The translations under genes were made by a program, and so were the position numbers. The notes under the pieces are model-generated. The model was not told the DNA's origin. It saw only the letters and a program-made list of their open reading frames with translations, and did no database searches. DNA of 64,000 bases from Halorubrum alkaliphilum (GTDB lineage Archaea > Halobacteriota > Halobacteria > Halobacteriales > Haloferacaceae). The stretch spans positions 1 to 64,000 of the forward strand of contig NZ_JAGGKQ010000010.1 of assembly GCF_017873815.1 (NCBI RefSeq), in the 5' to 3' direction. Positions 8,742 through 62,843 of the stretch are shown piece after piece; positions within the stretch are counted from its first letter, which is position 1; every line of letters starts with the position of its first letter.

Positions 8742-8951
8742 GACAGGCCACGATCGAACCGAGAGGCTTCGTTGAAACGCTTCGATATTGGTGACGTGAA
8801 CAACATCGGGAATGAGATCGTATTCAACAGACATCTGAGCGGCAGCGACGCTCACTTATAAACGGACAAAATGGACAATCGTGGTGGCGCGCGCGGGAAG
8901 CGCGCGCGAGGGAGTTGCGGTCGTCCCGGAGCGAAGCGACGGGCGACCGCA

Positions 8952-9009
8952 ACGAGGCTGGGGAGGCGTGAGGTGCGGTGGCGGTGTGGGGTGGGACTCA
9001 AAGGGGCAG
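8952..9009 (+). ncRNA. Conserved 58-nt G-rich core of element A (candidate structured RNA)
   Basis: This segment begins ACGAGGCTGGGGAGGCGTGA and ends GTGGGACTCAAAGGGGCAG. It is almost identical in copy B (39774-39831) and in reverse in copy D (62676-62733), while the surrounding sequence differs. It is followed by one arm of a stem that covaries between copies. Transcription has not been shown; calling it an RNA is inference. Confidence 0.45.
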
Positions 9010-9100
9010 TCGCGAGGACGAAGCACGCTGCGGCAAGCACCGCAGGAACGAGCGGAGCGAGTGACAAGGAGCACAGCGAAGCGCGCGAGTCCTCGCAACT
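9008..9100 (+). other. Covarying long-range stem in element A
   Basis: AGT-C-GCGAGGAC at 9008-9019 pairs with GTCCTCGC-A-ACT at 9089-9100 (11 of 12 positions, one C-A mismatch). The same-position stems in copy B (AGCCACGAGGAC with GTCCTCGTGGCT) and copy D (GCCGGACT with AGTCCGGC) have different sequence but remain paired. Confidence 0.7.
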
Positions 9101-9351
9101 GGGGCTTTGACAGTGTTCACCGTCGATCCGCAGTCGCTGACTTATAAACGGATCATTCAGGATCTGGAAGCATCCAGTACCACATCAACCACTTATAAAC
9201 AGCCGCCAGCAACACCACTTGCTCGCTTATAAACAACTACTCCACCGTATTGCGAGACCCACTCCCGAAATCGCTCGATACCCGCACTCCAGCGACCGGC
9301 TGTTTCGGTCGACGGTCCGTCTGAAGGGTGGGTTTTGGTGGAGACCCGGGT

Positions 9352-39328: not shown

Positions 39329-39661
39329 GCGCGGAAATGACGAACAGGCGACGCGGCCGCTGTGTGTTTTCCGCGGCGGGGCGTCGCGCTCCCGTCCAGT
39401 GCGCCGCGGGCGACGGTCACGTCACGGAGGAGTTGGCCGCGGCTTCGGTTATAAATAGACGGCTCAGTGGACCGACTGATCTTCATAGAGTGTTTAGTGA
39501 GTGATTTCGGGAGTGGGTATAGCAGATCGCCGGCGACGAGATCGTATTTAAAAGGAGTATGAGCGGTAGCGACGACCACTTATAAACGAGCGATACTATC
39601 GGCGTCACCGGCGGCTCCGCCGCCGGTTGCTAGCGAGAGCTTCGCTCTCGCCCTGCGCCCC

Positions 39662-39688
39662 GGTTCGTGCCTTATAAAGGCGCGAACC
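39662..39688 (+). repeat. Hairpin with TTATAA in its apex (element B)
   Basis: GGTTCGTGCCTT, loop ATA, AAGGCGCGAACC form a 12-pair stem with one T-G wobble. The TTATAA box occupies the tip. Confidence 0.8.
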
Positions 39689-39715
39689 GCGAGGGACCGA
39701 AGGCCCCTCTGGCAG

Positions 39716-39771
39716 CCGGTGCTACGCGCCGGCGACGACGGCGCGAGGGAGTCGCCGGCGCGGAGCACCGG
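39716..39771 (+). repeat. Twenty-pair hairpin in element B
   Basis: CCGGTGCT-A-CGCGCCGGCGAC (39716-39736) pairs with GTCGCCGGCGCG-G-AGCACCGG (39751-39771) with one A-G mismatch. It occupies the same place, just before the core, as different hairpins in copies A and C. Confidence 0.85.
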
Positions 39772-39773
39772 TG

Positions 39774-39831
39774 ACGAGGCTGGGGAGGCGTGAGGTGCGG
39801 GTGCTGTGCGGGGTGGGACTAAAAGGGGCAG
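39774..39831 (+). ncRNA. Conserved 58-nt G-rich core of element B (candidate structured RNA)
   Basis: Starts ACGAGGCTGGGGAGGCGTGA and ends GTGGGACTAAAAGGGGCAG. Only a few positions differ from the copy A core. In B an extra 50-nt hairpin-forming insert follows before the covarying stem. Confidence 0.45.
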
Positions 39832-39885
39832 GGAGCGGGGCCGACCGGAGGGAGGCCCCGACAGCGAACGGGCCGGAGGCCCGTG

Positions 39886-40029
39886 AGCCACGAGGACGAA
39901 GCACGACGACGCAAGCAGCGTGGCGCTACGCGCCACGGGAAGCCGGTAGCGGAGCCGCCGGCGACACCGCAAGGAGCGAGTGAAACGAGCGACTGAGGAG
40001 CACAGCGAGTCGCGCGAGTCCTCGTGGCT
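39886..40029 (+). other. Covarying long-range stem in element B
   Basis: AGCCACGAGGAC (39886-39897) and GTCCTCGTGGCT (40018-40029) are fully complementary over 12 bp. Copy A has a different sequence in both arms (AGTCGC and GCAACT on the outer side), still largely paired. Confidence 0.75.
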
Positions 40030-40235
40030 GGGGCTTTGGAGGCGTTTACCGCCGATCCGCCAGCAGCCAGTTATAAGCGAGCGACTGGGGCTTTGGACGC
40101 ACTCACCGCGTCAGCAACGACTTATAAACAGCCGACAGCAACACCACTAGATCACTTATAAACAACCGATCGGCCATATCGATATACCCACTCCCGCCAT
40201 CGTTCGCTGCGTCGCCGCCATTGAACTCGGGTATA

Positions 40236-49123: not shown

Positions 49124-49243
49124 AAGGGAATCCGGGCTCTGAGCCGGTGCGGTGTCTTATAAATGGCTGCGAGCGGTCTCCCGGCGAATGTCGACTCCGT
49201 TCCACTGGACGCTTCGCGCTACTCGAACCTCTGTACTCGATAC

Positions 49244-49643
49244 CGGGAGTAGATCGGATATACTGAGACGGTGGTGTTTATAAGCGAGAGAGCGGTGTTG
49301 CTGGCGGCGGTTTATAAATGAACGAGGCAAGGGATATCTCTTCTAAATCCCCAGCTCTCCGTTTATAAGTCGGAGACTGCGGATCGACGGTGAAGGCCTC
49401 CAAAGCCCCAGCCTCGTCGCTGGCGGCGGCAGCCGCCAGCGACTCCCTCGCGGTTCGGGGCTCGGAGAGCCGCTCACCGAGGCGCGGGGCGAGAGCGACG
49501 CTCTCGCTAGCAACCGGCGGCGGAGCCGCCGATGACGCCACCGTGTCGTCCATTTATAATCGATCGTCGCGGCCGCTCACAGTCTTTTACATTCGATCAC
49601 GTCGCTGCCGATGTGAGAAACTCACTCCCGAGATCACTCACTA
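49244..49643 (-). repeat. Modular TTATAA/hairpin element, copy C (reverse, lacks the core)
   Basis: About 400 bp between convergent pdxS and thrB. Read on the minus strand it starts TAGTGAGTGATCTCGGGAGT (49643 downward), then TGAGCGGCCGCGACG and TTATAA (49554-49559). Hairpins are GGCGGC-TCC-GCCGCC, GCGAGAGC-GTC-GCTCTCGC and a perfect 12-bp stem with 4-nt loop (49416-49443). Then come GAGGCTGGGGCTTTGGAGG, TTATAA (49363-49368), the 34-bp spaced pair (49310, 49276) and the end ACTCCCG (49244-49250). The 58-nt core and covarying stem are missing. Flank 49124-49243 has one more TTATAA (49157) and no gene. Confidence 0.85.
49416..49443 (-). repeat. Perfect 12-bp hairpin in element C
   Basis: GTCGCTGGCGGC, loop of four, GCCGCCAGCGAC. 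It sits between GAGGGA and GAGGCTGGGG, the same position as different hairpins in copies A and B. Confidence 0.85.
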
Positions 49644-62438: not shown

Positions 62439-62608
62439 GTCGAGCGTGGGTTCGTGAGTGAGCCGTAAAGCGGCGTCGGACGATGACGGCGATGACGTGG
62501 TTCTGATACATGGTTGACTGGGGGTCAGCGGTGGAGACTTTCAAAACCCCAGCTGCTTACTTATAAACGGTTGAGCACGGATCGACGGTGGACACCCCCA
62601 AAGCCCCA

Positions 62609-62673
62609 GCCGGACTTGACCTCCTCCCACGACTGAAGTCGTGGGCTCTCTCCTGCATTCTCTGTAGTCCGGC
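62609..62673 (-). other. Covarying long-range stem in element D
   Basis: GCCGGACT (62609-62616) and AGTCCGGC (62666-62673) form a perfect 8-bp stem at the place occupied by GCGAGGAC/GTCCTCGC in copy A. Both arms differ from A and B, but pairing is kept. Confidence 0.7.
62626..62645. repeat. IS200/IS605-like terminal palindrome inside element D
   Basis: CCCACGACT, GA, AGTCGTGGG. This resembles the end palindrome of haloarchaeal IS1341-type elements as I remember them. No transposase gene accompanies it. Confidence 0.6.
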
Positions 62674-62843
62674 GACTGCCCCGTTGAGTCCCACTCCGGA
62701 CAGCACCCGCACCTCACGCCTCCCCAGCCCCGTCACCGCACCACACTGATTTATTTAAGTATCGTCGTCTCCGTCGGATTCCCGCCTTCCGATCGACGGA
62801 TCCGTCGGCGCTCGCGTGCGCGTTTCTCGCGGCTATAACAGCA

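Follow-up and report, generated by a model that had tools for sequence, protein, structure and literature searches.

A gene-free repeat family of Halorubrum built around a single strand-specific folded module

Results

Copies A to D in the window

We analysed a 64,000-nucleotide stretch of the Halorubrum alkaliphilum genome (contig NZ_JAGGKQ010000010.1, positions 1 to 64,000; hereafter the window). It contains four related non-coding regions, copies A to D, which lie where the original prediction had placed them and share sequence blocks in the same order. Their features, with the basis for copy B in brackets, are as follows.

39498..40206, plus strand: copy B, complete element including both terminal repeats (sequence; 28 of 29 relatives have both flanking genes and no element)
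39498..39518, plus strand: copy B, left terminal repeat TGAGTGATTTCGGGAGTGGGT (sequence, terminal-repeat pattern)
39545..39585, plus strand: copy B, left arm with TATTTAAA, TGAGCGGTAGCGACG and TTATAA (sequence)
39600..39775, plus strand: copy B, variable hairpins ahead of the G-rich core (sequence)
39776..39831, plus strand: copy B, G-rich core, GAGGCTGGGGAGGCGTGAGGTGCGG to GGGACTAAAAGGGGCAG, including the 5′ side of the long-range helix (sequence, alignment)
39888..39897, plus strand: copy B, 5′ arm of the long stem P4, CCACGAGGAC (P4 pairing across 144 copies)
40018..40027, plus strand: copy B, 3′ arm of P4, GTCCTCGTGG (P4 pairing across 144 copies)
40028..40084, plus strand: copy B, first 57-bp unit, with the CTGGGGCTTTGG block (3′ side of the long-range helix) and TTATAA
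40085..40127, plus strand: copy B, second unit, shortened, with CTGGGGCTTTGG and TTATAA (sequence)
40186..40206, plus strand: copy B, right terminal repeat, inverted (sequence)
8804..9277, plus strand: copy A, left end shortened
8954-9009, plus strand: copy A, G-rich core
9010-9019 and 9089-9098, plus strand: copy A, P4 arms
near 9257-9277, plus strand: copy A, right terminal repeat
49233..49640, minus strand: copy C, without G-rich core and P4
near 49400-49415, minus strand: copy C, GAGGCTGGGG/CTTTGG junction
62531..62746, minus strand: copy D, G-rich core, P4 and two 3′ blocks

The four copies are less uniform than had been described. Inverted termini, claimed for all of them, are clear in copy B; the left end of copy A is short and imperfect (CGGGAATGAG), and copy D has no terminal repeat. 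The repeat itself proved longer than first given, at about TGAGYGATNNCGGGAGTGGGT. Copy D had been called partial, and it does consist of the G-rich core, P4 and the two 3′ blocks only, lacking terminal repeats and the left TTATAA. The 58-nt G-rich core and the long-range stem, also listed as common property, are both absent from copy C, in which GAGGCTGGGG runs directly into CTTTGG, as if the segment between two GGCTGGGG repeats had been deleted. Not all of the "perfect" hairpins are perfect: a tandem G.A mismatch recurs regularly in many of their stems. The CTGGGGCTTTGG block and TTATAA, taken for separate blocks, are both parts of one unit of about 57 bp that is present one to five times. 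The P4 loop of copy D contains GCCCACGACTTCAGTCGTGGG (about 62626-62646, minus strand), which may resemble the end hairpin of haloarchaeal IS200/IS605 elements.

Anatomy and copy number

In the window genome, a complete copy extends from a terminal repeat (TGAGYGATNNCGGGAGTGGGT) through a left arm (TATTTAAA, GTGAGCGGCNGCGACG, TTATAA) and a series of hairpins to the G-rich core, then through P4, whose loop contains additional hairpins, to the CTGGGGCTTTGG/TTATAA unit or units, a tail with TTATAA and the inverted terminal repeat. The unit of about 57 bp occurred once, twice, three, four and five times in 102, 21, 12, 2 and 1 of 138 modules, respectively. An outer sequence, GTCAGTACAGACGNAG, lies beside some copies; by eye, all four of its matches in the genome adjoin elements.

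The original prediction was to be given up if no copies existed outside the window, and many were found elsewhere in the genome (3.1 Mb, 64 contigs). A BLAST search with copy B returned 115 pieces on many contigs, including copies A and C, a number far beyond chance expectation. The terminal-repeat pattern gave 34 + 39 = 73 matches vs 0 + 1 for the reversed control, and half of the G-rich core gave 49 at one mismatch or fewer. Further stretches were read: 37 with BLAST pieces and 16 of the 20 taken via the terminal-repeat pattern.

At two places (L213, G000:C10 near 66.3 kb; L216, G000:C13 near 47.7 kb), short tandem repeats of the end of the element (ATCAGTCGACCCCACG-like and CCATCAGCCACTCCCG) adjoin degenerate copies. 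Contigs G000:C4, C6, C7, C8, C12, C22, C25 and C34 end inside or right beside copies, some of them in G/C runs resembling sequencing trouble at strong hairpins. The family thus bears on assembly as well, because several contigs of Halorubrum alkaliphilum stop within copies.

Covariation of the folded module

We collected 194 modules, 40 from the same genome and 154 from other genomes, by matching the conserved blocks. Block conservation among them is therefore partly built in; the covariation and G.A counts are free of this bias. From the 194, we aligned 49 modules of similar length. The fold comprises a hairpin, P2, in which a tandem G.A step is near-invariant, and the long stem P4, of changing sequence. 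Outside P4 lie, in order, CAG paired with CTG, GGG facing GGG in a symmetric internal loop, and a long-range helix of CAAAG facing CTTTG. Across the 17 pairs tested in P2 and P4, 15 had changed on both sides and 94.3% of cells paired, compared with 32-47% when the partner was slid; none of 500 shuffles reached the observed covariation values. Both G.A positions of P2 were kept in 44 of 49 rows each, and the adjacent pairs covary.

The GGG/GGG loop was kept in 207 out of 215 modules; as speculation, two more G tracts nearby could join it in a G-quadruplex. In the same 215 modules, one long-range pair read A-T in 165, G-C in 45, G-T in 3, A-C in 1 and C-T in 1. It was A-T in 35 of 36 modules from the window genome and G-C in 21 of 21 from another genome (G014). 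Both forms coexist in 7 of 34 genome groups, so the change probably arose more than once. In G014 (L266-L285), all 21 modules read carry CGAAG/CTTCG although their hairpins vary widely, which would amount to genome-wide homogeneity for one paired change.

Only once the long-range helix had been proposed did we test it in other genera. Where modules there read GAAAG for CAAAG, the 3′ side read CTTTC in 28 out of 31, the pair next to the A-T/G-C one being G-C there in place of C-G, and TTTT in one; no block was found in the remaining two. The P4 arms of these genera differ in sequence and are mostly still complementary. Another candidate, a closing stem GCGGTG/CACCGC, was dropped because by eye its 3′ side varies without a matching 5′ change.

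A match to a named Rfam family had been set as grounds for abandoning the idea of a distinct family. Rfam gave no match in the whole window at the gathering threshold; in E-value mode it gave none for one further copy (L110) and two chance-level matches for copy B (E 1.7 and 2.6), and thus nothing meaningful in either mode. For the L110 module, folding-energy z values were -3.48 (RNA) and -2.24 (DNA) on the G-rich strand and -3.60 (RNA) and -3.77 (DNA) on the opposite strand; folding energy alone does not pick out a strand or a molecule.

One folded strand

In the hairpins that the G-rich strand forms, 119 of the 179 internal loops of 2x2 type were GA/GA and 2 were TC/TC. In the rest of the window, GA/GA fell outside the six commonest types of 74, the sixth of which occurred twice. 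The G.A step was flanked by a pyrimidine before and a purine after in 109 of 130 cases. Only one strand carries the features of the fold. The cruciform of the original prediction is thus not borne out, because a symmetric cruciform would show no preference for GA/GA over TC/TC. The selected structured module that it also proposed is upheld by the covariation against shuffled and slid controls, by the test in other genera and by these one-strand mismatches.

Over P4 pairs 1-10 in 144 copies, a count that takes in some copies with stems out of register, G.T outnumbered A.C by 90 to 28 (37 to 1 at pair 1). Three-base loops were found in 205 out of 310 distinct perfect hairpins, and 192 of these were closed by C-G. 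The 205 distinct triloops included 72 GNA and 34 TNC, compared with 2 of each among 52 elsewhere in the window, and the 64 distinct tetraloops included 18 GNNA and 1 GNRA. C(GNA)G and GNNA are highly stable loops in DNA; in RNA, the common loop is GNRA. These loop counts speak for DNA, and the favoured wobble pairs at the base of P4 speak for RNA. That the folded strand is displaced DNA is somewhat less likely than not, and that it is a transcript is a little less likely again.

Spread across genomes and differences between arms

With copy B as query, all 52 genomes of the genus matched, its own included. Among the at least 116 stretches with the core listed in named records, 109 were from Halorubrum. 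Half of the core was present in 41 of 392 sampled genomes of the order, 32 from the genus and nine from outside it. It occurred 5-173 times per genome in the 32 (own included); outside the genus, it occurred 65 times in one genome and once each in eight. The densest genome had 173 matches in 3.02 Mb, or about one copy per 17 kb. A minimal copy from H. sodomense used as query matched 123 of 170 genomes of the family, some of which may share only common hairpins. Two exact patterns found 0 stretches each in viral contigs, the phages searched gave no match, and plasmids gave few and weak matches only (2 and 6 records). In one locus of another genus (L288, G106:C1 near 2,769,909), we observed a minimal form, GAAAGGGGCAGGGGCTTTC, with the helix and both G tracts and without the P4 domain.

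Read by eye, copies from G004, G006 and H. sodomense have the core, P4 and the 3′ block but lack the terminal repeats seen in the window lineage, and scanning the stretches from G004 and G006 with the terminal-repeat pattern gave a single weak match. We typed the arms of the 124 modules, out of 194, that had both anchors: a terminal repeat was present in 41, the outer sequence in 7 and only TTATAA in 41, and the other 35 had none of these. The conserved part is thus the folded module and not the terminal repeats. The module is retained across lineages while the surrounding arms differ, and the family is built around this single module.

Insertion sites and placement

For each of the sites of copies A, B and C, we compared 29 of 51 relatives searched. 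At the B site, 28 out of 29 relatives have both flanking genes and no BLAST match to copy B; in the remaining one, the upstream gene is absent from its contig. Copy B is an insertion, occupying a site where most relatives have no element. At the A site, none of the 29 relatives has a module within about 1.3 kb; this is not a clean empty site, because the far flank is poorly or not syntenic. At the C site, a module lies nearby in 6 of 29 relatives. Both C flanks were located in six relatives: in three, a module occupies that intergenic region in matching orientation (one copy being reduced), and three have none by pattern, of which one (L338) retains a remnant. The original prediction had set empty sites, as a sign of mobility, against fixed syntenic copies, as a sign of a cellular role. 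B sites were mostly empty, and copy C showed long retention in 3 of 6 relatives. The claim of a mobile element is thus supported for copy B, through its empty sites, and through the different arms around one module.

Among collected loci, an element was present on both sides in 27 of 56 flank comparisons and on one side in 29, a comparison biased by choosing loci for having an element and by some two-sided cases arising via distant copies. The two-sided cases argue that many sites are old and, with sites B and C, that copies insert, persist and decay. The closest pair among own-genome copies compared was only 94.0% identical over 620 bp, which gives no sign of very recent movement; there were no near-identical copies among them. 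We found no target duplication in 22 two-ended copies (best z 2.5 over 440 combinations), which old copies may have lost; the relatives' flanks were too diverged to give exact insertion boundaries. No transposase-bearing element sharing the terminal repeats was seen among own-genome terminal-repeat pairs. When we clustered 598 flanking proteins, the largest cluster had 8 members at 8 loci and by eye comprised ordinary genes; no protein family recurrently linked to the element emerged. One copy (L033, G000:C3 near 167,500-168,700) is interrupted by about 0.7 kb with an ORF that by eye resembles, we presume, an IS6-type transposase.

Placement was assessed for 153 of the 194 copies, leaving out 41 at edges, against genes from a codon-score caller. 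Nine out of 153 copies overlapped predicted genes. Convergent gaps held 65 of 153 copies (background 112 of 716) and divergent gaps 25 of 153 (background 196 of 716), as expected for insertions that avoid genes and promoters. There was no orientation bias towards codirectional genes (29 vs 34) and no strand pattern along G001 (100 of 101 places; 53 runs vs 50.3 expected, arc test P 0.16). Two further candidates were set aside. PMC8707807 reports a spacing of about 26 nt for the HF2 repeats; we dropped TTATAA as a promoter of the module, because a start about 26 nt downstream would fall inside it. The 58-bp repeats of HF2 were dropped as relatives, since the motifs quoted in that paper differ.

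Discussion

We favour the reading, with a probability of about one half, that copies A to D are members of an old and extensive family of non-autonomous mobile elements, present in Halorubrum and in some related haloarchaea, that carry a strand-specific folded module. The mobility machinery would recognise this module: during a single-stranded stage, a trans-acting protein would bind the element's folded strand and copy or move the element. Slippage among repeated GGCTGGGG, TTATAA and hairpin arms could then produce modular variants and deletions. We only infer that the module serves mobility. Counting against mobile elements, we found no transposase, donor element, target duplication or recent copy, and many sites are old; the absence from viral contigs and phages, with few weak matches in plasmids, is also unusual for an active mobile element.

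The long-range covariation would also suit a structured RNA family, in which all copies or a few master copies are transcribed and act as a host RNA or spread, SINE-like, via reverse transcription. The excess of G.T over A.C in P4 (90 vs 28) is what a wobble-tolerant RNA would show, and window-type copies have a TATTTAAA box upstream of the module. This box, however, was by eye not seen in every lineage, the loops are not RNA-like (1 GNRA to 18 GNNA among 64 distinct tetraloops), the copies show no orientation bias towards codirectional genes (29 vs 34) and Rfam gave no match; we regard an RNA family as rather unlikely. Still less probable is a host function, in which the cell would retain the family as a chromosomal-structure or replication element that spreads chiefly through inheritance. 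Conservation of the module across the genus (all 52 genomes, the window genome among them), the occurrence of certain copies at shared positions in several species and, among the matches listed, the location of all 100 G001 places on its large contig speak for it; the range of 5-173 half-core matches per genome, the lack of a strand pattern along G001 and the absence of copy B from most relatives speak against it.

Finally, the palindromes might have no function, being made and kept via DNA-level slippage, template switching and gene conversion. Deletions between repeats, hairpin loops in both orientations (72 GNA and 34 TNC of 205 distinct triloops) and, by eye, an internal segment inverted in copies C4_57, C6_106 and C6_148 fit such an origin. 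It leaves unexplained the GA/GA loops on one strand (119 vs 2), the near-invariant G.A step next to covarying pairs and the covariation of a helix split by a long domain, and we consider it very improbable and already disfavoured. In L028, L040 and L042, by eye, the segment enclosed by P4 has the opposite orientation to that in other copies, as though it had turned over between the inverted arms.

Within the mobile-element reading, a bolder version is that the family is selected for folding as single-stranded DNA. The G-rich strand would then form minihairpins whose loops are GNA or GNNA, with sheared G.A steps in tandem, and its GGG/GGG loop would join two further G tracts in a quadruplex, which the molar potassium inside haloarchaeal cells would favour. 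This folded strand would be the substrate of a putative single-strand transposition system. We hold this version to be unlikely on present evidence. The family lends itself to testing two questions. One is by what means repeats that lack both genes and target duplications move in archaea; the other is whether selection can shape a genomic sequence for folding as single-stranded DNA.

We found no name for the family in the literature searched, and it matched no Rfam family. The original prediction fairly contrasted it with a uniform MITE, although BOX, BIME and other mosaic repeats are a kind already known. By definition, MITEs are short, gene-free, many-copy elements with inverted terminal repeats, which describes window-type copies only, and the target site duplication of MITEs was not seen in our 22 two-ended copies. 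BOX and BIME of bacteria are intergenic, MITE-like mosaics of stem-loops with a conserved block order and a variable number of inner units. The present family differs from them in domain of life and in sequence, and we know of no G.A-rich strand-specific module or GGG/GGG helix in BOX or BIME. HEARO and omega RNAs are multi-copy, stand-alone structured RNAs of mobile elements, with a conserved fold linked to mobility; unlike them, our family has no Rfam match, and its flanking-protein clusters have at most 8 members among 598 proteins.

Closer parallels come from Haloquadratum. According to excerpts of PMC3119063, the small mobile repeats SMR-A and SMR-B of Haloquadratum walsbyi are gene-free and present in many copies, with inverted terminal repeats not traced to a transposon and no target duplication; SMR-A is about 110 bp long and inserts into other mobile elements. 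Our family likewise has inverted terminal repeats, and neither a target duplication nor a parent transposon was found; judged by that description, it is set apart from SMR-A by its greater length, its modularity and its covarying strand-specific module. The same excerpts describe palindrome-associated elements (PATEs) as gene-free, hairpin-bearing elements without target duplication or inverted terminal repeats that resemble IS605 ends and are tied to IS605-type single-strand transposition (PMC3119063). As far as that account goes, our family resembles PATEs in being gene-free and hairpin-bearing, with no target duplication found, and differs in that no IS605 link was found and window-type copies have inverted terminal repeats, which by eye module-only copies elsewhere do not. 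We think the family is more interesting than first stated: not a MITE cruciform but a strand-specific folded module that persists across lineages while its arms differ.
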